64,000 nt of DNA. It comes from Streptomyces purpureus. GTDB lineage: Bacteria; Actinomycetota; Actinomycetes; Streptomycetales; Streptomycetaceae. Within the stretch, counting starts at the first letter, position 1, and every line of letters begins with the position of its first letter. This document shows positions 4,533 to 27,101 of this stretch, piece after piece. The stretch covers positions 28,223 to 92,222 of the forward strand of contig NZ_BMQQ01000005.1 of the NCBI RefSeq assembly GCF_014648195.1, given 5' to 3'. The notes beneath the pieces are model-generated. The model was not told where the DNA came from. It made no database searches and was given only the letters and a program-made list of their open reading frames with translations. Made by a program: the position numbers and the translations under genes.

Positions 4533-5414
4533 GTGAGTGAGCTGCGATTCGCCCGTCTGGGCTTCGGCGAACAAGCCGTCGAGTACCGGACGGCCTGGGA
4601 CAAGCAGCGCGAGGTGCACGCGGCCAGGTTCGCCGACGAGATCCCCGACACCTGCCTCCTCCTGGAGCACCCGCCCGTCTACACGGCGGGACGGCGCACT
4701 GAGGACAGCGAGCGCCCCCTGGACGGGACGCCCGTCGTCGACGTGGACCGCGGCGGCAAGATCACCTGGCACGGCCCGGGCCAGCTCGTCGGCTACCCGA
4801 TCCTCAAGCTGCCCCGCCCGGTCGACGTCGTGGCGCACGTCCGCCGCCTCGAGGAGGCCCTGATCCGTACGGCCGCCGAGTTCGGCCTGGAGACCACCCG
4901 GGTCGAGGGGCGCAGCGGCGTCTGGGTCCTCGGCGACCCCGTCGAGCAGCGGCCGGCGCTCGGCGGGCTGTCGCTGGACTTCGACCCGCGGCTGCACGAC
5001 GAGGAGTTCGACCCGCGGCTCAACGGCCCGGAGTACGCGCCCTCCAACGCCGGCCAGCGCCGCGAGGACCGCAAGCTGGCGGCCATCGGCATCCGGGTCG
5101 CCAAGGGCGTCACCATGCACGGCTTCGCGCTGAACGTGAACCCGGACAACACCTGGTTCGACCGGATCGTGCCGTGCGGCATCCGGGACGCGGGCGTGAC
5201 CTCGCTCTCCAACGAGCTGGGCCGGGAGATCACCATCGCCGAGGTCCTGCCGGTAGCGGAGCGGCATCTGCTCGATGTCCTGGAGAACGCGGAGCTCAAG
5301 CCGCGCCTGGTCGAGCGCCCCGCCGAGGCCGGCGCCGACACCCGGTCCGCCACGGAATCCGCAGGCCAGGGCGTAGTCACGGCCGAACGCGAGGCGGAGA
5401 CGGCCACCGCCTAG
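4533..5414 (+). CDS. lipB: Octanoyl-[acyl-carrier-protein]-protein N-octanoyltransferase LipB
   Basis: A 293-residue lipoyl(octanoyl) transferase that moves an octanoyl group from octanoyl-ACP to the lipoyl domains of 2-oxoacid dehydrogenases and the glycine cleavage H protein. Family signatures are visible: TAGRRTED and [16 protein letters not shown] near residues 51-92, the catalytic-lysine strand [21 protein letters not shown], and the catalytic cysteine in [14 protein letters not shown]. An insertion of about 25 acidic residues between the substrate-binding motif and the lysine strand, plus a roughly 35-residue low-complexity C-terminus, make it longer than E. coli LipB. The GTG start has a good RBS. 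lipA follows 100 bp downstream, the usual pair. Confidence 0.96.
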
Positions 5415-5514
5415 GGAATGCCCGGTCATGGCCAGAGGTTGGCCAGGCGTAAGGCATGCGAAGCAACGGGCGTACCCTGGTGTACGCCGAAGAATCGAAG
5501 CTACAGGAGCCGAT

Positions 5515-8495: not shown

Positions 8496-9905
8496 ATGTT
8501 CCAGAACGCCGACGACGTCAAGAAGTACATCGCGGACAACGACGTCAAGATGGTCGACGTCCGGTTCTGCGACCTTCCCGGCGTGATGCAGCACTTCACG
8601 ATCCCGGCCACGGCGTTCGACCCCGCCGAGGAGCTCGCCTTCGACGGTTCGTCGATCCGCGGCTTCCAGGCGATCCACGAGTCCGACATGGCGCTGCGTG
8701 CCGACCTGTCGACCGCGCGGGTGGACCCCTTCCGCCGCGACAAGACGCTGAACATCAACTTCTTCATCCACGACCCGATCACGGGCGAGCAGTACAGCCG
8801 CGACCCGCGCAACATCGCCAAGAAGGCCGAGGCCTACCTCGCCTCCACCGGCATCGCGGACACCGCGTACTTCGGCCCCGAGGCCGAGTTCTACGTCTTC
8901 GACTCGGTGCGCTTCGAGACCTCGGCGAACCAGGGCTTCTACCACATCGACTCCGAGGCCGGCGCCTGGAACACCGGCGCGCTCGAGGACAACCGTGGCT
9001 ACAAGGTCCGCTACAAGGGCGGCTACTTCCCGGCCCCGCCGGTCGACCACTTCGCCGACCTGCGCGCGGAGATCTCCCTGGAGCTCGAGGCGGCCGGCCT
9101 CCAGGTCGAGCGCCAGCACCACGAGGTCGGCACCGCCGGCCAGGCCGAGATCAACTACAAGTTCAACACGCTGCTCGCTGCGGCCGACGACCTGATGCTC
9201 TTCAAGTACATCGTGAAGAACGTCGCCTGGCGCAACGGCAAGACCGCGACCTTCATGCCGAAGCCGATCTTCGGTGACAACGGCTCGGGCATGCACGTCC
9301 ACCAGTCGCTGTGGTCGAACGGCGACCCGCTCTTCTACGACGAGACCGGCTACGCGGGCCTCTCGGACACCGCCCGCTACTACATCGGCGGCATCCTCAA
9401 GCACGCCCCGTCGCTGCTGGCCTTCACCAACCCGACGGTGAACTCCTACCACCGCCTGGTCCCCGGCTTCGAGGCCCCGGTCAACCTGGTCTACTCGCAG
9501 CGCAACCGCTCCGCGGCCATGCGTATCCCGATCACGGGCTCCAACCCGAAGGCCAAGCGCGTCGAGTTCCGCGCGCCGGACCCGTCCTCCAACCCGTACC
9601 TGGCCTTCTCGGCGCTGCTGCTGGCCGGCCTCGACGGCATCAAGAACAAGATCGAGCCGGCCGAGCCGATCGACAAGGACCTCTACGAGCTGGCCCCCGA
9701 GGAGCACGCGGGCGTCGCGCAGGTCCCGACGAACCTCGAGGCCGTCCTCGCGGCCCTGGAGGACGACAACGAGTACCTCCAGGCCGGTGGCGTCTTCACG
9801 TCCGACCTGATCGAGACGTGGATCGACTACAAGCGCACCCACGAGATCGCCCCGATCCAGCTGCGCCCGCACCCGCACGAGTTCGAGCTGTACTTCGACC
9901 TCTAA
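8496..9905 (+). CDS. glnA: Glutamine synthetase type I
   Basis: A 469-residue GSI-beta subunit catalysing ATP + glutamate + ammonia to glutamine; the family forms dodecamers. Visible motifs are the N-terminal beta-grasp segment with FDGSSIRGF, the metal/glutamate-binding strands ([25 protein letters not shown]), the ATP motif [27 protein letters not shown], and the adenylylation loop with Tyr397 in DLYELAPEE. Tyr397 matches the canonical modified residue, so GlnE-dependent control is expected. The ATG at 8496 has AGGAGGA at 8484-8490. The GlnR site lies about 100 bp upstream and a terminator follows. Confidence 0.98.
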
Positions 9906-16178: not shown

Positions 16179-16243
16179 GGCGCGTACGGTGACATGGCAC
16201 CGCGCGTACGTGACATGGCACGGCCCGTACGGTGACATGGCAC
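16179..16243. repeat. Three tandem 21-22 bp repeats, operator-like
   Basis: Units at 16179-16200, 16201-16221 and 16222-16243 share SGCSCGTACG(G)TGACATGGCAC. Each contains GTGACATGGCAC, a near-perfect palindrome. A perfect version, GTGACATGTCAC, occurs at 18132-18143 inside the second gene of the downstream cassette. The array lies 185 bp before the vWA-like gene. Helical phasing of about two turns suggests a cooperative regulator site. Confidence 0.7.
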
Positions 16244-16427
16244 GCGGCCCGGCACCGCGGAAATGCGGTGGCGGGCCGTGGCATGTGTGGTGTTACGTTT
16301 TTCCGGCCGGCCGCGGGACTCCGGCGCGACTTCCGGGACTTGCTTCTGACGCAGTGATTTCGCTGTTCGCGCCCCCATTCCCCGGCCGGCTCCATGTTTC
16401 GTGGGGTGCATACGGGGGCGCGGCATC

Positions 16428-17834
16428 ATGACCGAGACGTACGCCGATCTGATCGCGGCCGAGGACGTCCTGCTCTTCGTGAACTCCGCCGTCACGTCCA
16501 CGGGGCAGCGTGAGTTCCGTTCGGACGCCTATGAGCAGCGGCTGTCGCTGGCGTTCGTGCACGAGTACGTACGGGTCAACTACCGCTCCGTGTATGCCGC
16601 TTCGCTGGCGCTCGACATCAACGACCACAACGCGGCGCGGATCGTGACGCAGCTGCTGCGGACGGCCGGTGAGGCCGACGCGGAGCAGAAGCGGGTGGAG
16701 GGCCGGCTGATCGCGGCGCGGCTGGCGGTGCTGCCGCCGCAGCGGGTCTACCGGATCTTCCGTGAGCTGCGGGCGGCGGGGGTGAACAACCGCCGGACGC
16801 GGGCGATCGTCCGTGACTGGCTCGCCGCGCGGCCGGATCTGGCGCATGACGCGGTGAAGTACCGGCCGGGCCTGAAGGCGGCGGCCCGCCACGCCCACCT
16901 GCCGCTCGACCGGGGCGAGTTGGGGGACTTTCTGTTCGCTCCGGGGCGGCGTGTGCGGTACGAGCACCGGTTCCTGGACGCGTACCGCCGGGCCCACTAC
17001 GAGCAGGCGGCCCTCTACGAGCTGCCGTTCACGGTCGCCGAGGGGTTCGCGGCGCGGCACGGGGTGGAGCGGAAGGTCTTCCTGGAGCGGATCGCGCCTC
17101 GGATGACGCGGCTGGAGCGGTTGCGCTCGGGTCGGGCGGCCGATGCGGACCTGGCGGTGATGCCGCTGACGCGGCTGGCGCTGTACGTGCTGTCGCTGGG
17201 GTTCGAGGAGCGGGTGGCGCGGCGGGCCGAGCTGACGGGGGCGCTGCGGGCGGCCGCGCGCCGGGCGGCGGGGCCGTACGCCGGGACGTGGGGCCGGGTC
17301 GCGGCCGTCCTGGACGACAGCTATTCGGCGTCGGGGTCGGGGGTGAAGCGGCGGCGGCCGCTGGCGGTGGCTTTGGGGTGTCATTTTCTGCTGGAGGCAC
17401 TGGCGGGGTCGTACGTTCCGCTGTGGACGTCGGGTGCGCGCGATCCGCTGCTGGTCCGGCCGTGGGGGCCGACGCCGCTGGGGGTGCGGATCGTGGACGC
17501 GCTGGAGGCGGCGCCCGAGCGGCTGGTGATCGTCTCCGACGGCTGGGACAACGCCCCGCCGGGGCTGGCGGGCGAGGTGCTGCGGGTGTGGCGCACGCAG
17601 CTGGACCAGGAGCGGCGGACCAGCGTGGTGCATATGAACCCGGTATACGACGCGGCCGGTTTTGATGTGCGGCGGCTCGCGCCGAGTGTGCCGACAGCCG
17701 GGATCCGTGATGCGGAGGATCTGCCGGCGCTGGTGGAGATCGCGCAGTTCGCGGAGGGCCGGACGGGGCTCGGGGAGCTGCGGGCGTATCTGGACCGGCG
17801 GGTGGAGCTGTTCGTGAAGGGGGTGGCGGTGTGA
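16428..17834 (+). CDS. Ro60/TROVE-like protein with vWA-type MIDAS domain
   Basis: A 468-residue cytoplasmic protein. Residues about 5-260 are all-helical repeats (SLAFVHEYVRVNYRSVYAAS, then HNAARIVTQLLRTAG). Residues about 285-460 look like a von Willebrand A fold: LDDSYSASGSG matches the MIDAS DxSxS, and VIVSDGWDN is the second MIDAS aspartate strand. Helical repeats followed by a vWA domain is the layout of Ro60/TROVE RNA-binding proteins, though I cannot confirm the TROVE family itself. The ATG at 16428 is chosen. The gene overlaps the next by GTGA, so the pair is translationally coupled. Confidence 0.65.
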   Translation: MTETYADLIAAEDVLLFVNSAVTSTGQREFRSDAYEQRLSLAFVHEYVRVNYRSVYAASLALDINDHNAARIVTQLLRTAGEADAEQKRVEGRLIAARLAVLPPQRVYRIFRELRAAGVNNRRTRAIVRDWLAARPDLAHDAVKYRPGLKAAARHAHLPLDRGELGDFLFAPGRRVRYEHRFLDAYRRAHYEQAALYELPFTVAEGFAARHGVERKVFLERIAPRMTRLERLRSGRAADADLAVMPLTRLALYVLSLGFEERVARRAELTGALRAAARRAAGPYAGTWGRVAAVLDDSYSASGSGVKRRRPLAVALGCHFLLEALAGSYVPLWTSGARDPLLVRPWGPTPLGVRIVDALEAAPERLVIVSDGWDNAPPGLAGEVLRVWRTQLDQERRTSVVHMNPVYDAAGFDVRRLAPSVPTAGIRDAEDLPALVEIAQFAEGRTGLGELRAYLDRRVELFVKGVAV

Positions 17835-19071
17835 GCCGGATCGATCTGACCGGGCTGCGGGTGCTGCCGGCGCAGGTGTGGGGCGGGGTCCGGTTGGTGC
17901 CGCTGGTGCGGGAGGAGCCGGTGGCGGGGCTGCGCCTGCACCGGGAGGTGTACGGCGGCGTGGGCGGCGTGGGCGGCGGGCTCGGGGTGGTGGATGTGGG
18001 GGACGGCACGTCGTACGCCTCGTACATTCCGCATGGGTTCGTCGCCGACTGGTCGCATGCCGAGAACGGGGACGGGGGCGGGGGCGGGAGCAAGGCCGGG
18101 GGCGAGTCGGCGGCGTACGGCACGCGGCTCGGTGACATGTCACACCACTGTGTGCCGGTGCGCCGCCACCACCGGATGGCGAAGCGGGCCCGTGCGAAGC
18201 AGGCCCGTACGAAGCGGGCCGAGTCCCGGCTGCGGTTCCTTCCCCTGCATCTGGCGCTGGAGGGGTATCTGGCGCTGCACTTCGGCGGCCCGTCCATGGT
18301 CTGGGAGGAGTGGTCGCGGCAGGCGCTGCGCCAGGGTCTTTCGCCGCGCGCGGAGGACGCGTACGCGGGGTGGGAGGTGCGGGGCCTCGGGGAGGCGCTG
18401 CGGGTCTTCGAGATCCATCCGGGGCAGTGCGGTGTGATGGTGTACGCCGGTGACGCGCTGGCGGCGGCGTTCGTGGTCCCGCACCCGGAGGACTACCGCG
18501 TGCTGCATCCGACGCTGGTGCAGGACCTGTACGGGGAGCTGGTGCATCAGTACGCGTGGTTCGGGGCGCCGGTGCCGGAGTTCACGGCCCGGATCCGGGA
18601 CACGTACGTGCGCTCGCTCGACGGTCTGCGGGCGGCGGCCGAGGAGCAGGGCCGGGCCTGGGCGGCGGCGCACGACTCGGTGATGGCGCGGGATCTGCTG
18701 GAGACGCCGTACGCCTTCGAGCGGGTGTACCGGATGGGGGGCGTCCGGGGGGGGCGGCGGCGGATTTCACGTTGTACCGCTTCCTGCCGCCGTTCCAGCG
18801 GGGCGGACGGGAGCAGCACATCGGTGAGATGATCACGGACCGGAAGGGCCGGGCGGCGTATCTGAAGACGTTCCGGCTGTCGGAGAACCAGGTCCGGCGG
18901 GGGTATCTGCTGCAGAGTCTGGCGGATCACGACTGGCATCTGGGACGGACGGCGCAGGCTCTGGGCAGCAGCTATGCCGAGGTGGTGCGGCGGATCCGGG
19001 CGGCGGGCTTCGGCTCGCTGCTGGACGCGCACGTGGTCGCACGGCGCACACGGGAATCACAGGAAAGCTGA
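17831..19071 (+). pseudogene. ARPP-like partner protein with Fis-type HTH C-terminus, frameshifted at a G8 run
   Basis: The open frame from the GTG at 17831 stops at 18832 after an unrelated Arg/Ser-rich tail. Homology-like sequence continues in the -1 frame (TLYRFLPPFQRGGREQHIGEMITD...) to 19071. The switch occurs at GGGGGGGG (18747-18754); one more G would give a continuous protein of about 413 residues. Sections: an N-terminal LTGLRVLPAQVWGGVRLVPL domain (from memory like the ARPP-2 family), a basic KRARAKQARTKRAE linker, FLPLHLALEGYLALHFGG, and a C-terminal Fis-like helix-turn-helix (SLADHDWHLGRTAQALGSS). It is coupled to the vWA-like gene by a 4-nt overlap. Sequencing error, phase variation or a genuine mutation are all possible. 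Confidence 0.65.
18132..18143. promoter_or_regulatory. Perfect GTGACATGTCAC palindrome inside the ARPP-like gene
   Basis: A 12-bp perfect palindrome matching the near-palindromic core of the three repeats at 16179-16243; possibly an internal site for the same regulator. Confidence 0.4.
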
Positions 19072-20768: not shown

Positions 20769-23700
20769 TCACATCAGATTCCGGAGCCACCCCTTGAGGG
20801 CAGATCCCCATTGCTTCTGTGGGACTCCGGAGAAGAGTGGATCTGATCCGCCTCTACCATTAGACAAGGCTGAATGGTACTTGGGCGCCTTGGGGCCCCG
20901 GATAGCTGCCATTCCGGCGCCACGGCCAAATGTCGCGCCAGCCACCATCCCCTCAACCTGCGAGATCGCTGTGGGCAAGATGAACTTTTCCGGATTTTTC
21001 GCGTCCACCTCATCCGCCAGTGCTATATGAGCACCGAGCCCGACGGCGAACAGAGACAGGGCCCCAACTGCGAATAGACCCGCGCCGCAAATCGCTGAGG
21101 CTATGCATGCAGTCGTTCCGACCGTTGCCAGGAATTTTATACCAAGGTCTACGCCCGTATGCGTCCACCAGTATCGGCTACCTAGACTGTTATCGAAGGC
21201 ATCCTTGAAATTCCCTTTCGCAATGCTGGCCAGGATGCCATTCTCCTTCTTGCGCCGCTCTGCCTCAGCCCGAGCAGCTCGTTCCTTGGCCCGCTTCACC
21301 GCCTGGGCCTTGGCCGCCGCCACCGCCTTCGCGTTGTAGTGGTACACCTTGTAGTGACTCGGGTTCGCCCGGTACGCCCTGTACCGCTTCTGCGAGTCCG
21401 CGTCCTTCCTCGGGGTCTGGTGCCAGATCCACCGGCCGCTCTTGTACGTGTAGCCGGCGCTCATGCCCCGTTCCTTGGCCCAGAAGTAGTCGGCGACGCC
21501 GTTGCCGCCGACCGGGCCGTCCGGGCGGAGGCCGTCCGGGTCGGACTTGGTGACCGGGTTGTTGTGGGCGTAGCTGTAGGCGTTCATCTGGGCCGGGTCG
21601 TCGTGGTCGATGATCGGGTCCACCGACAGGAAGCGGCCCAGAGTGGGGTCGTATTCGCGGGCTCCGAGGTGGGTGAGGCCCGTCGGGTCGTTCGTGCCGC
21701 CGACGAAGCCGCGGGGGCCGAAGTCGGTCGACTGCTCCGACCGCAGTCCTCCGAAGGGGAGCTGCTTGCGACGGGTGATCGCGAGCGTGCCGAGGGCGAC
21801 GGCTGCCATGGCCGTGCCCTGGTGGTCGCCGAACAGGTAGGCGGTCTCGGCGCCTTGGCGGACGGCGACCGTCTCGCCGTTGTGCGTGTAGTAGCGGGTG
21901 CCGGTCTTCGCGCCGCCGGCGGAGACCTTGAGCTCGTCGCCGTTCGGGAGCGTGAGGATGCTGCTTCCGTCCGCGTTCCTGGTGACCATCCGGCCGCCGT
22001 CCGCGTCGTACAGGTAGCTGGTCGTCTTGCCGCTCTCGACGAGCGTGGCCAGGTGGCCCTCCGTGTTCCAGGTCAGGTCCTGGACGCGGGTGCCGATGGT
22101 GCGCTTCTTCGTGTTCCCTGTCTCGTCGTAGGTGAAGGTGCTCTTGCGTCCGTCGTTGGCGCCGCCCTTCACCACCGCCTGCTGCACGGCGTGAGGCAGG
22201 TTCCCCTTGGGGGCCGGGTGGGTGTAGGTGGTGGTGGCGTCCGATCCGGCGAGGGCTCCGGTGCCGTGCTCGACGAGCTGGGTGCGGTTGCCGGCCGCGT
22301 CGTAGCCGTAGGTGTGCCAGTACGCGTCCGGGCCGCCTACGCTGCTCGCCGAGGGGGCTGCCGCGCAGTCCGCCTTGGCGGTCCAGGCCTCGGTGAGCCG
22401 GCCCAGGGGGTCGGTGGTGAAGCACTGAGTGTCCGTGGACTTTGTGGCGTCCTGACCGCTTACGGTCGTCACGCCTCTGATGTTGCCCGCCGGGTCGTAG
22501 GCGTACGTGGTGTCGTCGATACGTTGCGGGGCGATGCTTCGGTCGGTGGTCTGCCGGGTCAGGCGGCCGGTGTGTTCGTCGTAGCTTCTTGCCTGCCTGA
22601 CGCTCTTGCCCAGGGGGTCGCCGAACTCGGTGACACCGGGCCGTGCGAAGGCGTCGTACAGGGTGTTGGCGACGAGCGCGATGCCGTCGCGGCTGGTGCG
22701 GAAGGGCAAGTCGTCACTGTTGTAGTTGGTGGTCACGCGCTCGGAGGGCACGTTGCCGACCGCGGGGTTGAGCGTCCATTCCAGGGCACCGGTCTCGGCG
22801 TTGTAGCCGTATCTCCAGGCGTAGGTGCCCGCCAGTGCACCGGCCGCCGTCGGTGCGGTGAAGCTCGTGGAGGTGGGCTGGTACCGGTCGGTGTAGCCGC
22901 CGGTGGATGTGGTGTAAGCGGCGCCGTCCACGTAACGAGTGGCGCTGGTCAGCTGCCCCTTCGCCACGGTGTCATAGGTCCACTTGGCGAGGAGGATAGG
23001 GCCGTTCTTCACCTCCGCCTTGCGGCCGAGCTCGTCGTAGACGGTGGTGAGAATGGCCCCGCGGGCGTCGGTCGTGGTGGCGACGCGACCGGCCCTGTCG
23101 TAGGTGAGCTTGGACAGGCCCTTGTCGGGGTCGTCGACCTGGGTCTTCTGGCCCCGGCTGTCGAAGGTGTACGTCCAGGTGTTGCCTGCGGGGTCGGTGA
23201 CGGTCTGCGGTTCGTCGTACTTGCCATAGGTGTACGTCGTCTTCTGCGGCTGGGTGAGGTCCGCGCCCGCGTACTGCAGGAGCTCGGTCGTGCGGCCGTC
23301 CGCATCGGTGACCTTGGTGGTCGCCGTGCCTCCCCGCGGCGGGATCAGCGTCACGCGGTCGCCGCCGTACGTGGTGGTCGTGCGCCACTGCTCGTCGCCG
23401 AACTTCAAAGAGAGCGAGGCCGTGACGCGCCCCATGCCGTCGAAGACGTTCTCGGTCGCGACCGGCACCTGGTTGACGGACTTGGCGGTGAACAGGGTGG
23501 TCGAGGGTGCGATGTCGGCGATGTAGGCGCCGAAGCTCCTCCAGGCCCGTCCGTGACTGTCGTAGTGCGTCTCGGTCACGACCGTCTGTTGCGTGCCGAT
23601 GGCGGGGCTCTGGGTCTGCCGCTCGCGCAGTTGACCGTCGAAGAGCGCGTATGACGTGCGGTACTCGCCGTTGTGCTTCAGGGACTTGGTGGTGACGGAG

Positions 23701-26700
23701 TTCGCCTCGGTGCGGGAGATCCGGTAGCTGTACTCCTCGGAAGGCTGTGTGCTGTGGTCCGCCTTGGACCAGCCCGGCTGCCACACCTTCAGCACGCGGC
23801 CGAGGCCGTCGTGGACGGCGTCGGTGCGCTTGCCGTTGGCGTCCACCACGGAGGTGGCGACACCGCGAGCCGGTTCGTAGGTGGTTGTCATGGTGTGGCC
23901 GAGTGCGTTCGTCTCGGTCTTCGCGGTGGGCGCGAGGACCGTCGCGGGGGTGTAGGCCGTGGTCGTGGTGTGGCCGAGCGCGTCGGTCTCGGTCAGTTCG
24001 CGGCCGTGCTGGTCGTAGGTGTGCCTTGCCGTGGTCAGGAAGCCGTTGCCAGTTTCGTCCTGTTCCTCCAGCCGGGTCACGTCGCCCTCGACGGGAGCCG
24101 CGGTGAGGCTGGTCGCTCCGTCGTAGTACCGGCGCTCGACGGAGATCAGGTCCGCGGGCAGTGTCGGCACGGTGGTGCAGGGCTTGGCGACGGTCTTGGC
24201 CTCGGCCAACAACGTGAGGATGTTCTTGGCGGTGTTGCGGGCGTAGGTGTTGGTGACGCACTCCTCGTCGCCGGCCTTGGCGGTGTCACCGAGCTTGGAC
24301 TCGGTGAGCACCTGGCCGACGGCGTCGAAGGTGCGAGTCGTCTGCGTGGTGCGCCAGCCGGCGCCGACAGCGGTACGCGATTTCTCGGCTTTGCCGCCGG
24401 TCGCGTGTGCCTTGCGCGCGGGCAAGCCTTCCGCGCGGGTCTCGGTGGCGGTGGCCGCCGAGAGCCATGGTTCGTAGCTGGTGACGGACTCCAGCTTTCC
24501 GCCGTCGCCGTTGTACGTGGCTTCTTCACGGGTCATTCCGGCGAAGGGTTCCCAGTCGGTAATCGCCACACCTTCGGAGTCCTTGACGGCAGCACCCTCG
24601 ATGCCCCGGAAGTAGCGGTACTCCTTGAGCGTCTTGCGGGCGCTGTCGTCACCGGTGCGAATCTGGATCCGGCCGTAACCCTTGCGGTCGCTGTAGGTCA
24701 GGTGCTTGGCCTTGGTGAACTCGTCGTCCTTCGACTTGCCCCAGGCCATTCCGTCCAGGTACGCGTAATCCGTTCGCTTGGCCGGCGCTCCGCCGGTCTG
24801 GTCGGTCTCCAGCACCTGGGTGACCACGTAGGAGTGGAACCAGTCGAGGTAGGGCTCGTAGTCGTCGGCCGGGGCGTCCGGCGGGGACCAGATGACCGGA
24901 TAGCACCGCCGGGTATTCGTGGCGGGTGACGGCACGTCTCCGGCCTTGCAGTCCCGCGCCGAGTAGGTCACACCGATGACGCCGCCCGTCTCGGTCTCGA
25001 TGCCGTACACGCGGTGACGCCACAGGGGCGGTACGGGGTCGGGGTCGCCGCCGGTCGTCGCGCCCTCCACGCGGTTGGGGAGCGGCAGCGCCTTGAACGT
25101 CACGGCGGGCATGGTGACATCACCGGCGCCGGTGTGGCCGGTGCGTGTGATGGAGGCGAGCCAGAGCGCCGGCTTCATGCCGTCCCCGCTGGCGGGGAAC
25201 TGCTGGCCGAGCGTCCAACTGTCGACGGGCTTGTAGACGCTGCCGACAAGCACCGAGGTGGCGATCTTGGTCAGCCGCATCCTGGACCAGAAGGACGGAG
25301 AATAACGGTCCTTGCACTCCGTTCCTGACGCGCAGTACTGATCGAAGGGGACGTCCGGCCAGTTGGCGGCGTGCCCCTTGTCGAATGCGGAGCAGTTGGT
25401 GAGGCAGCGCTCGGCGACGGTGAAGTCCACCTTGGCGGCCGGCTTGGCCCCGTACATGTCGGTGCCACGCAGTCCGTACTCGATGCGGTCGAGGGTGCCG
25501 CCGCGTGCGTACACGGTCGCGGTGGAAGCGCCGGTCGACGCGTTCACGTTCCGGCCGTAGTAGTTGAGCTCCTTGTTCCAGTAGTAGGCCATCGCGTCAC
25601 CGTGCGGATCCACGACATAGTCGAGATTCCACCGCCAGGCCTGCCTGCACCACGAACCGCTGAACGAACTGCTGTAGCACGGCTCTCCGGCGTGGTTGCC
25701 GAACACCGGGACGGTCCAGGCGGAGTCGGTCTCAGGCTTGCCGGACACCCAGCCGGGGAGCCGGTTGTAGCCGAAGTAGTACTGGGTGCCGTCCGGGGTG
25801 GTCACCTTCCAGTACTCGCCGTCGGCGTCCTCGTTGCCGCGGCCCGAATCGGCGACCTTGACGATCTGGGTGCCGTCGTCGCTCTCCAGGTGCCATTCGC
25901 CGCTGGCCGTGTCCTTCACGAGGGTGTTGGTCCGGCCTCCCAGATTGAGGACGGCGTTGTCCTTCTTCCAGCACAGGTCGCCGACCTTCGCGGCGGTGTT
26001 GTTACTGCCGGCTTTGTCATCGGTGCAGGGAATGTACTGCCGCTCGATGTAGCCGGGGTCCATGGACCAGCCCTCGCCGATCCAGTTGGCCTGGTTGTTC
26101 GTCGCGGCGGTACGGCCGTCCACCGACTGGGAGGAGTAGGCCAATTGCAGCTTGGGGGCCACATCTCCCGGGACGTCGGGCGTGTGGATGTCGTAGTTCC
26201 AGGTGAAGCCGCCGTTGGAGCCGCCCGCGGTCCAGGACGCCGATGCGGCGAGCGAGGTCGCCTTGAAGTCGCCCGCAGAGCCGGACGCGCCGGCGGTCAC
26301 GGCGAACAGCGCGGTGCCGGAGCCGTCCGCGAGAGCAGTGGTCCGGGGCGCCGCTTTCCCTGCGGAGGTTTTCGGAGCGATGGGCGCGGCCCCCGGAAGC
26401 TCCACCCTGGCTTTGAGTGTGCCGGCCTTCGCGTCGTTGGTGGAGGGGACGTCCTGGCCCCCTCCACAGCCTTTGACGCGAGGGGTGGTCAGGGCGCAGG
26501 CGGGCAGCTGCCGGAGTTTCAGGCGGCTTCCCCAGTCGCCCCCATAGGCGTCGCGGAAGGGCCTGTAGTCGACTTCGACGCCGACCTTGCCCTTGGAGCC
26601 CCTCGTGGCACGCAGGGCGACGACCAGACCGTCTACGCCCAGGGCCTCGCTCGCCTTCCGGTCGAGGATCCGGACCTGGGCCTGCTCAGGACCTGCGGCG

Positions 26701-27101
26701 GAGGTGACTCCGCTGCTCGTCCCGGATCCGCCGGAAGCCTTCCCCGACGGACTCGTCGCCTTGGCCGTGGGCACCTTCACCAGACGCACCGGTCCGGCGT
26801 TCCGGCCTTCGGTGAGCACGTCGACCGTCGCCGTGCCCGCCTTGGGCCAGGCCACCTTCGGTGCGCCCTTCCAGGCGTTCCGTGCCGCGAAATCCGTGAG
26901 GCCCGACGCCTTCGGTTCTACCTCTTTCGTCGGCACCGGAGCCGGGTTCCTCAGCCCAAGCTCCTCCAGTGCCGCCGCGGCCGCGACCGGGCCGCCCAGT
27001 AGACCGGTCAGCAGCAGCCCGGCCAGAACCGCGGCTGTCTGCCGCGTCCATACGGCCCATGCGGCCCCGCGTCTTATGCCGCCGCCCCTCACCTGAGACA
27101 T
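20769..27101 (-). CDS. Secreted RHS/YD-repeat polymorphic toxin-like protein
   Basis: A 2110-residue exported protein. It has a basic N-terminus with a long hydrophobic segment (residues about 20-45, a signal peptide), an N-terminal beta-rich region, then many YD repeats (for example YDQHGRELTETDALGHTT, YTFDSRGQKTQVDD, YDAAGNRTQLVEHG) across about 1000-1800. The RHS core signature LGAREYDPTLGRFLSVDPI lies near 1810, followed by NPVTKSDPDG. The last 250 residues form a variable tip: a Lys/Ala/Arg-rich helix, then two hydrophobic segments (about 1987-2032), then an 80-residue end. The tip DNA (20769-21250) is visibly lower in GC and uses rarer codons, a sign of exchange. No known nuclease motif is seen in the tip. 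The family's shell encloses the toxic end. Confidence 0.88.
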   Translation of the reverse strand: MSQVRGGGIRRGAAWAVWTRQTAAVLAGLLLTGLLGGPVAAAAALEELGLRNPAPVPTKEVEPKASGLTDFAARNAWKGAPKVAWPKAGTATVDVLTEGRNAGPVRLVKVPTAKATSPSGKASGGSGTSSGVTSAAGPEQAQVRILDRKASEALGVDGLVVALRATRGSKGKVGVEVDYRPFRDAYGGDWGSRLKLRQLPACALTTPRVKGCGGGQDVPSTNDAKAGTLKARVELPGAAPIAPKTSAGKAAPRTTALADGSGTALFAVTAGASGSAGDFKATSLAASASWTAGGSNGGFTWNYDIHTPDVPGDVAPKLQLAYSSQSVDGRTAATNNQANWIGEGWSMDPGYIERQYIPCTDDKAGSNNTAAKVGDLCWKKDNAVLNLGGRTNTLVKDTASGEWHLESDDGTQIVKVADSGRGNEDADGEYWKVTTPDGTQYYFGYNRLPGWVSGKPETDSAWTVPVFGNHAGEPCYSSSFSGSWCRQAWRWNLDYVVDPHGDAMAYYWNKELNYYGRNVNASTGASTATVYARGGTLDRIEYGLRGTDMYGAKPAAKVDFTVAERCLTNCSAFDKGHAANWPDVPFDQYCASGTECKDRYSPSFWSRMRLTKIATSVLVGSVYKPVDSWTLGQQFPASGDGMKPALWLASITRTGHTGAGDVTMPAVTFKALPLPNRVEGATTGGDPDPVPPLWRHRVYGIETETGGVIGVTYSARDCKAGDVPSPATNTRRCYPVIWSPPDAPADDYEPYLDWFHSYVVTQVLETDQTGGAPAKRTDYAYLDGMAWGKSKDDEFTKAKHLTYSDRKGYGRIQIRTGDDSARKTLKEYRYFRGIEGAAVKDSEGVAITDWEPFAGMTREEATYNGDGGKLESVTSYEPWLSAATATETRAEGLPARKAHATGGKAEKSRTAVGAGWRTTQTTRTFDAVGQVLTESKLGDTAKAGDEECVTNTYARNTAKNILTLLAEAKTVAKPCTTVPTLPADLISVERRYYDGATSLTAAPVEGDVTRLEEQDETGNGFLTTARHTYDQHGRELTETDALGHTTTTAYTPATVLAPTAKTETNALGHTMTTTYEPARGVATSVVDANGKRTDAVHDGLGRVLKVWQPGWSKADHSTQPSEEYSYRISRTEANSVTTKSLKHNGEYRTSYALFDGQLRERQTQSPAIGTQQTVVTETHYDSHGRAWRSFGAYIADIAPSTTLFTAKSVNQVPVATENVFDGMGRVTASLSLKFGDEQWRTTTTYGGDRVTLIPPRGGTATTKVTDADGRTTELLQYAGADLTQPQKTTYTYGKYDEPQTVTDPAGNTWTYTFDSRGQKTQVDDPDKGLSKLTYDRAGRVATTTDARGAILTTVYDELGRKAEVKNGPILLAKWTYDTVAKGQLTSATRYVDGAAYTTSTGGYTDRYQPTSTSFTAPTAAGALAGTYAWRYGYNAETGALEWTLNPAVGNVPSERVTTNYNSDDLPFRTSRDGIALVANTLYDAFARPGVTEFGDPLGKSVRQARSYDEHTGRLTRQTTDRSIAPQRIDDTTYAYDPAGNIRGVTTVSGQDATKSTDTQCFTTDPLGRLTEAWTAKADCAAAPSASSVGGPDAYWHTYGYDAAGNRTQLVEHGTGALAGSDATTTYTHPAPKGNLPHAVQQAVVKGGANDGRKSTFTYDETGNTKKRTIGTRVQDLTWNTEGHLATLVESGKTTSYLYDADGGRMVTRNADGSSILTLPNGDELKVSAGGAKTGTRYYTHNGETVAVRQGAETAYLFGDHQGTAMAAVALGTLAITRRKQLPFGGLRSEQSTDFGPRGFVGGTNDPTGLTHLGAREYDPTLGRFLSVDPIIDHDDPAQMNAYSYAHNNPVTKSDPDGLRPDGPVGGNGVADYFWAKERGMSAGYTYKSGRWIWHQTPRKDADSQKRYRAYRANPSHYKVYHYNAKAVAAAKAQAVKRAKERAARAEAERRKKENGILASIAKGNFKDAFDNSLGSRYWWTHTGVDLGIKFLATVGTTACIASAICGAGLFAVGALSLFAVGLGAHIALADEVDAKNPEKFILPTAISQVEGMVAGATFGRGAGMAAIRGPKAPKYHSALSNGRGGSDPLFSGVPQKQWGSALKGWLRNLM

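Follow-up and report, generated by a model that had tools for sequence, protein, structure and literature searches.

A conserved cassette in Streptomyces purpureus and its relatives comprising a Y-RNA-like RNA, a protein with a predicted Ro60 fold and an ARPP-2 protein

Introduction

Two tandem genes that adjoin a glutamine synthetase gene in Streptomyces purpureus raise the question of what kind of system they form, and whether a ribonucleoprotein (RNP) of the Ro60 type may be present there in a form that sequence searches do not see. According to the account in PMC7790460, functional work on bacterial Ro60 particles comes almost only from Deinococcus. The two genes, referred to here as gene A and gene B, lie in a 64,000-nt stretch of contig NZ_BMQQ01000005.1 (the window; part of contig C5 of an assembly of 94 contigs and 7.54 Mb). 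An earlier interpretation made from the letters of the window (the sequence-only reading) had proposed that gene A joins helical repeats to a von Willebrand factor A (vWA) domain with a metal ion-dependent adhesion site (MIDAS), as in Ro60/TROVE proteins, that gene B has an N-terminal domain resembling ARPP-2 and ends in a Fis-like helix-turn-helix (HTH), and that upstream repeats and an internal palindrome provide dedicated control. The pair belongs to a real, conserved three-part cassette of a Y-RNA-like RNA, a protein with a predicted Ro60 fold and an ARPP-2 protein. The cassette is probably a sequence-divergent RNP of the Ro60 type that has an ARPP partner and a Y-RNA-like RNA of its own.

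Structured RNA upstream of gene A

Upstream of gene A, in actinobacteria as on three Nostoc plasmids, there is consistently a covarying 85-nt RNA. Alignment of the regions upstream of gene A exposed it as a conserved block. It was present at all 80 loci of a gene A collection scan, these being the best 80 of 211 relatives (78 Streptomyces, one Actinomadura and one Saccharopolyspora), and at 11 of 11 orthologues recovered by whole-genome search, amounting to 91 of 91 actinobacterial loci. L003 and L037 are apparently from one genome and L084 and L088 from one assembly, and for this reason the locus counts do not all represent separate species. The 92 RNA copies reduce to 81 distinct sequences with lengths of 84-87 nt.

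The consensus is a long hairpin in which an 8-bp end stem, present in all 81 distinct sequences, is followed by a bulged C, a GGGA/UCCC helix and an internal loop; above the internal loop, a 7-bp stem leads through a further loop to a 4-bp stem, which is followed by a 3-bp terminal hairpin. The unpaired C at position 9 was invariant in 81/81 sequences and in 56/56 of a set including Nostoc, the true 5’ end being putative. Of 2106 cells representing the 26 pairs, with identical sequences counted once, 98.7% were paired, a figure that leans towards the structure because the structure was derived from the same sequences; sliding the partners by 1-3 columns reduced the paired share to 34-51%. Double-sided changes are better evidence for RNA stems than the pairing percentage. 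They were found in seven pairs and 23 cells, compared with means of 2.0 pairs and 2.3 cells after shuffling, and none of 500 shuffles reached either value. In the window, the segment 16290-16400 yielded a minimum free energy of -48.3 (z -3.3). Conservation falls within approximately four bases 3’ of the RNA.

A coding stretch was ruled out by changes in paired columns and by the lengths of 84-87 nt, which show that the block is not codon-phased. Membership of a known Rfam family was likewise ruled out, since no Rfam model matched at the gathering threshold; seven weak matches were returned up to an expectation value (E) of 5, none of them Y RNA. The sequence-only reading had advised a survey for linked Y RNA genes, having itself missed the conserved structured RNA that lies immediately before gene A, in the position expected of a Y RNA.

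Among 90 distinct upstream sequences, the strongest signal was T-A-n-n-n-T at -12 to -7 from the first base of the end stem (T -12 in 82%, A -11 in 81% and T -7 in 85%). Further conserved bases were G -14 (87%), A -43 (82%) and G -35 (78%). Given the usual spacing of a -10 element to the transcription start, the predicted element would place transcription initiation on the first RNA base or next to it.

Predicted fold of the gene A product

The predicted fold of gene A resembles that of Ro60/Rsr along almost the entire protein. The AlphaFold model, prepared from a 10-sequence alignment without templates, had a predicted local distance difference test score (pLDDT) of 75.5 and a predicted template modelling score (pTM) of 0.70, and consists of helices to approximately residue 285 followed by an alternating strand-helix domain with pLDDT values of 46-88 by block. 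When the model was compared with the PDB using Foldseek, the first 11 rows were Ro60, Rsr or TROVE structures (E 6.2e-5 to 9.7e-3). Re-alignment of 1000 chains to the model with VIA-align, taking one row per entry, placed Ro60/Rsr/TROVE structures at ranks 1-10 (Z 12.0-15.9, root mean square deviation 4.7-5.5, 387-402 residues aligned), with alignments covering model residues 11 or 12 to 441-464. Ranks 11-14 were lone vWA/MIDAS domains with Z of 7.9-9.2. The MIDAS set comprises DxSxS (D296, S298 and S300), T349 and D371, all five residues being invariant in 12/12 aligned proteins, including the phage and Alkaliphilus relatives described below. The N-terminal helices and the DxSxS/T/D set of the model bear out the helical repeats and MIDAS vWA domain proposed from the sequence, and the top rows of both structure comparisons agree with the proposed Ro60/TROVE-like layout.

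Scans of gene A against Pfam and NCBIfam returned no match of any kind. When 24 gene A proteins were compared with Pfam, TROVE (PF05731) was not among the matches, which were chance hits to five families, each in a single member (best E 0.0061). No credible match was found among PDB sequences, where Csm6, at a best E of 0.7, was considered as a relative and judged not credible, and no known family was reached in PHROGs. Gene A is not called a TROVE protein here because the test of TROVE sequence similarity failed. The relationship suggested by the sequence-only reading thus holds for the predicted fold but not for TROVE sequence or profile similarity.

Gene B and the gene pair

Gene A is consistently followed by a gene of the ARPP family. 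The first part of gene B (Table 1) matched the Pfam ARPP-2 family with 406 bits against a cut-off of 27, confirming the identity suggested for its N-terminal domain, and the cut-off was passed by 19/19 gene B homologues. ARPP-1 was matched weakly, below its cut-off. The structural model of gene B was poor (pLDDT 62.5) and its ARPP part gave no clear fold match (best Z 3.4).

The HTH region was matched by Pfam HTH_8 weakly in S. purpureus (E 0.095) and, with E values of up to 1 allowed, in 6/19 homologues (lowest E 0.013). In a fold comparison, the HTH of an intact orthologue matched the DNA-binding domain (DBD) of NtrC4 (4fth) with a probability of 0.98 over 43 columns (E 1.0). In the window the ARPP-2 and HTH-like parts are in different frames, with a G run between them, whereas they share one frame in 90/91 relatives, L053 and the window copy being the exceptions. 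A single gene B ending in a Fis-like HTH is therefore right for the family but not for this copy. Together with an apparently shortened TROVE gene elsewhere in the genome, the break hints either at insertion or deletion errors in the assembly or at the loss of both particles.

Gene A is followed by gene B on the same strand at 92/92 loci (91 relatives plus the window), and the conservation of the pair, the absence of which the sequence-only reading had named as grounds for refutation, is thereby established. The coordinates of the open reading frames bear out the tandem arrangement with a GTGA overlap; this 4-nt overlap is preserved at 60/92 loci. At a single locus, L058, a gap of 644 nt separates gene A from the matched start of gene B. 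Among the strains with an intact cassette are Streptomyces lydicus (L100), S. natalensis (L079) and Nostoc edaphicum (L133).

Table 1. Features of the cassette in the window, with the evidence for each.
Feature	Position	Strand	Description and evidence
Gene A	16428..17834	+	468 aa; predicted Ro60/TROVE fold with helical N-terminal part and MIDAS-type vWA; AlphaFold, PDB comparison
Gene B, first part	17831..18832	+	ARPP-2, aa 4-303; PF22549, E 6.6e-122; frame broken near 18740-18765
Gene B, C-terminal part	18754..19071	+	Other frame; Fis/NtrC-type HTH region; HTH_8 and NtrC4 DBD match
Structured RNA	16306..16390	+	85 nt; alignments A3 and A9, pair counts, covariance model R1, co-occurrence
Predicted -10 element TACGTT	16294..16299	+	90 distinct upstream sequences

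Co-occurrence and decay in actinobacteria

Across 41 genomes, comprising S. purpureus and 40 relatives, one and the same set of 12 was matched by gene A, by ARPP-2 and by the RNA model R1, each once per genome. Among 296 genomes of the genus, matches were obtained in 50 with R1, in 52 with the profile of gene A and in 52 with ARPP-2, 51 of the last being over the cut-off. Gene A was whole or in two pieces in 47/52 of the profile matches, and the RNA was found in 47/47 of these on the same contig and strand, with a distance of 21-213 nt (median 39) from the RNA end to the matched gene A start. The remaining five genomes (G435, G465, G515, G563 and G660) had remnants of gene A or weak matches to it (20.9-87.4 bits), and four of them lacked the RNA.

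Three genomes were RNA-positive with no full gene A: G563, G653 and G517 (loci L130, L128 and L129, respectively). Pieces of both A and B adjoin the RNA in G563 and a C-terminal piece of B adjoins it in G653. In G517 the RNA is adjoined by an ARPP-2 piece of 28 bits; tblastn of that stretch was empty at E 1e-3. These three loci suggest decayed cassettes, lost through internal deletion. An RNA without a cassette or its leftovers was not seen in the 296 genomes, with the limit that the stricter filters of the RNA search may miss weak matches. When the phylum was sampled evenly (396 genomes), profile A8 of gene A matched four genomes, all of the same genus, and ARPP-2 was over the cut-off in five.

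TROVE-family genes separate from gene A were present in 27 of the 41 genomes, S. purpureus included. They occurred in 9/12 genomes with gene A and also in genomes without it. The S. purpureus copy (L117, G000:C32 around 46589) seems to be cut short just past the MIDAS motif.

Relatives outside the actinobacteria

A tblastn search with gene A against 72,556 plasmid records identified gene A at 45-47% identity on three Nostoc plasmids, of which two are typed as conjugative. ARPP-2 lies 3’ of gene A in all three (E 6e-113 to 2e-115), directly after it in L134 and beyond intervening XisH/XisI genes in L133 (7451-8190) and L135 (7472-8211). Model R1, which contains no Nostoc sequence, identified the RNA directly upstream of gene A in 3/3 plasmids (57.2-60.5 bits, E 6e-11 to 3e-10). 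At five of the eight positions in the 5’ strand of the end stem the Nostoc sequence differs, and all eight pairs are kept, one as G-U. The bulged C, GGGACU and GACUUCC are also retained, and the RNA folds with a z of -4.4. With Nostoc included, double-sided changes extended to nine pairs and 36 cells, values reached in 0/500 shuffles, in an alignment that was fitted to the model. In L134 an annotated thermonuclease-family gene (8746-9435) adjoins ARPP-2 on the opposite strand. The gene A match in L135 (6001-7416; Nostoc sp. UHCC 0926) is unannotated and its reading contains a stop.

More distant relatives of gene A were found on a plasmid of Alkaliphilus (Clostridia, Bacillota), at 25% identity to the Nostoc protein (E 5e-15), and in a 462-kb uncultured phage, at 22% to gene A (E 1e-19); the two are 27% identical to each other. 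In both loci the relative is followed by ARPP-1 (DUF6569; E 1.2e-22 in Alkaliphilus and 6.3e-25 in the phage). The C-x-QQTQ motif of these two ARPP-1 proteins has no cysteine counterpart in two aligned ARPP-2 proteins. A profile search of viral contigs with A7 was empty, and a search of the same contigs with the phage protein returned one contig with an identical protein. Near the gene A relative and ARPP-1 of the phage (L136, LR756500) are a CYTH-domain gene and four predicted tRNAs, one of them tRNA-Pyl.

As the covariance models R1 and R2 were negative in the Alkaliphilus and phage loci, the two proteins can be paired where this RNA is absent; an RNA motif search of the phage locus was likewise empty. 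Upstream of the Alkaliphilus gene A relative (L138), the stretch 5244-5428 folds unusually well (z -4.4) and contains TGCGATTTCCGA, which resembles the core of the Nostoc RNA. The score of its local alignment with the Nostoc RNA was reached in 2/1000 intergenic shuffles, and an equal score was also obtained on the opposite strand of the locus. A hairpin and a U run after the folded stretch were noted by eye; a terminator scan found none. As a lead only, the stretch is possibly a distant cognate RNA of the Alkaliphilus protein. A TerD gene is among the neighbours in L138.

Relationship to known systems

The ends of Y RNAs pair with each other, and Ro60 binds the lower stem; one bulged C in this stem (human C9) is essential and is reportedly retained in bacterial Y RNAs (PMC4726728, PMC4030889). 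The RNA upstream of gene A resembles them in belonging to the approximately 80-120 nt class and in its paired ends, bulged C9 and internal loops above, just as gene A resembles Ro60/Rsr in the predicted order of a helical part and then a MIDAS vWA domain. It differs from Y RNAs in having no Rfam match and no 3-nt opposite bulge, and no tRNA-like module, a feature of some bacterial Y RNAs, was called in it by ARAGORN; gene A differs from Ro60/Rsr (TROVE) in having no detectable TROVE sequence similarity.

According to PMC7790460, Rsr of Deinococcus is tethered to PNPase by a Y RNA, and genes for bacterial Ro60 may be located with RtcB/RtcA. The Salmonella rsr-yrlBA-rtcBA arrangement treated in the same source is similar to the cassette in that one operon unites a Ro60-type protein with a structured noncoding RNA and a partner resembling an enzyme. 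In contrast, the RNA of the cassette precedes rather than follows the Ro60-like gene, the constant partner belongs to a different family (ARPP-2, in place of the RtcB/RtcA of Ro60 systems) and RtcB is on another contig.

PMC9503650 places ARPP proteins in conflict systems predicted to centre on ADP-ribose, in some of which vWA proteins are among the associates, and proposes that ARPP proteins act on ribose moieties. Gene B shares membership of ARPP-2 with these systems. The cassette departs from them in the C-terminal HTH of its ARPP-2 protein and in that neither ADP-ribosylglycohydrolase nor rhodanese-phosphatase was among the nine neighbour representatives scanned. In the openly licensed literature searched, no paper describing a cassette of this RNA, gene A and ARPP-2 was found, nor was any tested activity of an ARPP protein.

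Proposed function and alternative explanations

If the cassette is a Ro60-type RNP, its RNA would start at the end stem and would be either processed from the gene A message or made separately. The gene A product would bind the 85-nt RNA through the lower stem with its bulged C, as Ro60 binds Y RNA, and this binding might gate or position the gene A ring for damaged or foreign RNA. The RNP could then gate or scaffold how RNA that is damaged, misfolded or foreign is handled, and would contact a partner in a MIDAS-dependent manner. Gene B, with its ARPP-2 and HTH parts, would be the dedicated partner, acting on captured RNA or ribose ends or, alternatively, sensing the state of the RNP; its HTH may bind RNA or the promoter.

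Several results weigh against this interpretation. Vertebrate Y RNAs are reported to have a 3-nt bulge opposite C9, and YrlA has a tRNA-like module. The cassette RNA has no 3-nt bulge opposite C9, its internal loop lying instead beyond a 4-bp stem, and it is not called a Y RNA here because this test failed. ARAGORN called no tRNA in 16200-16500 of the window or in Nostoc L133, although a mimic may escape tRNA calling. The 4-bp upper stem is not preserved in the Nostoc RNA, and the Alkaliphilus and phage loci yielded no such RNA with R1 or R2. The gene A model is of moderate quality overall and of lower confidence in its vWA part, and VIA-align carries the warning that Z below approximately 13 may be due to chance for helical models. 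Comparison of a gene A profile with nine streptomycete TROVE proteins using hhalign gave a probability of 2.7%, and a further hhalign comparison with the nine reached 11.3%, across 33 columns in the DxSxS region; with HMMER, gene A profiles recovered 0/9 of these proteins at E 10. The S. purpureus genome carries a separate TROVE-family gene elsewhere, and ARPP-associated vWA proteins are read in PMC9503650 as peptide-binding chaperones and not as RNA binders. Lastly, the RNA lies within the probable 5’ leader of gene A, which makes a cis-regulatory leader conceivable.

A broader form of the Ro60-type interpretation is about evenly balanced between being right and wrong. It holds that pairs of a Ro60-fold protein and an ARPP protein form a second, sequence-invisible Ro60 branch, an unrecognised RNA-handling machine of conflict or stress. 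The branch would span Actinomycetota, Nostoc (Cyanobacteriota) plasmids, one Bacillota plasmid and one jumbo phage, and would have its own covarying Y-like RNA family in Actinomycetota and the Nostoc plasmids. If the cassette is alike in fold to Ro60 particles yet missed by TROVE searches, Ro60-type particles would be more widespread than has been counted; a new covarying RNA family would come with a ready protein partner; and ARPP proteins would gain a concrete substrate to test. The near-invariant RNA core and bulged C allow the contact between protein and RNA to be tested directly in tractable strains of Streptomyces and Nostoc.

A role related to stress or conflict, and not a housekeeping one, is suggested by the patchy presence of the cassette, its decay and the fact that plasmids and a phage carry it. 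RNA repair and conflict are candidate roles. A more specific proposal, that the cassette serves anti-phage or inter-element conflict, the RNP sensing invading RNA or phage-made RNA damage and ARPP-2 acting as effector or repair partner, is tentative and somewhat less probable than its opposite. It concerns the role and is compatible with the Ro60-type RNP. The place of ARPP proteins alongside vWA proteins in predicted ADP-ribose-centred conflict systems (PMC9503650) is in its favour, as are the presence of gene A in 47/296 genomes of the genus with decay in others, and the relatives on three Nostoc plasmids, two typed conjugative, and in a jumbo phage. PADLOC, however, had no model matching gene A or gene B; the nine neighbour representatives scanned included no family of the ADP-ribosylglycohydrolase, macro or nuclease type, the thermonuclease-family neighbour in Nostoc being a single case; and the proximity of glnII at 59/80 loci is unlike a mobile defence island.

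It is unlikely that the RNA is instead a control element in the 5’ leader, bound in the message by the protein of gene A or B (by the HTH, for example) so as to set expression. The RNA always lies just upstream of gene A, genomes with remnants retain it beside operon leftovers, and no terminator was noticed between the RNA and gene A, the streptomycete loci not having been terminator-scanned; all three agree with a leader. Against it, the spacing from the RNA to the start varies widely, the promoter-like bases would put the 5’ end at the end-pairing stem, as in stable RNAs, and the RNA core hardly varies between two phyla. In Alkaliphilus, moreover, the hairpin and U run, seen by eye with a negative terminator scan, separate the structured region from gene A.

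Very improbable is the view that gene A is a generic protein of helical repeats and vWA that binds no RNA, such as a peptide-binding chaperone, and that the upstream DNA is a promoter or operator block: the missing TROVE sequence similarity, the possible inflation of Z for helical models in the VIA-align note and the chaperone reading of ARPP-linked vWA proteins (PMC9503650) would accommodate it, but the ten top VIA-align rows are of one family, span both domains and stand above the next rows, while the upstream block covaries as RNA stems, with 5/8 positions of the Nostoc end stem changed yet paired, and DNA operators need no such covariation.

Repeat array and genomic neighbourhood

Copies of GTGACATGGCAC occur at 16189, 16210 and 16232 (16189-16243) and the palindrome GTGACATGTCAC at 18132 (18132-18143), the motif giving five strand-hits where 0.03 were expected. 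The tandem repeats and internal palindrome of the sequence-only reading are therefore real, but the dedicated control of the cassette that it attached to them is not upheld. Exact copies of the 12-bp operator-like motif were found at 3/127 loci compared, all three from the S. purpureus genome, and the motif occurs at 19 places genome-wide, 15 of them outside the cassette (25 strand-hits; none in the reversed control). Since exact copies among the loci compared are restricted to the same genome and most places of the motif lie outside the cassette, the array represents no conserved dedicated control, and as it is not conserved in relatives it was rejected as part of the cassette. The motif may be the site of another regulator.

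The glutamine synthetase gene glnII is near the cassette at 59/80 collection loci and 63/92 overall. At the other 21/80 collection loci there is no glnII within the stretch, a few of these having short flanks, and the order RNA-A-B is kept. Neighbours were clustered from crude gene calls at 77 loci with long flanks, with gene A itself unpicked at four, and the survey is accordingly partial. Nine representatives of recurrent genes were scanned, namely glutamine synthetase, a MocA-type oxidoreductase, a response regulator, a histidine kinase and MocR, together with members of epimerase, hydrolase, PepSY and DUF6891 families. No RNA-related family was among the nine. Linkage to RtcB, which the sequence-only reading had suggested looking for, was not borne out: the sole RtcB match in S. 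purpureus is on contig C8, apart from the cassette on C5, and none was among the nine representatives; RtcA and RtcR were not searched for. For its companion suggestion of linked nucleases, the annotation in Nostoc L134 is one case, and none was among the nine representatives scanned.

Elsewhere in the window, on the reverse strand, positions 20769-27101 contain a 2110-aa open frame with repeats that appear RHS-like by eye.

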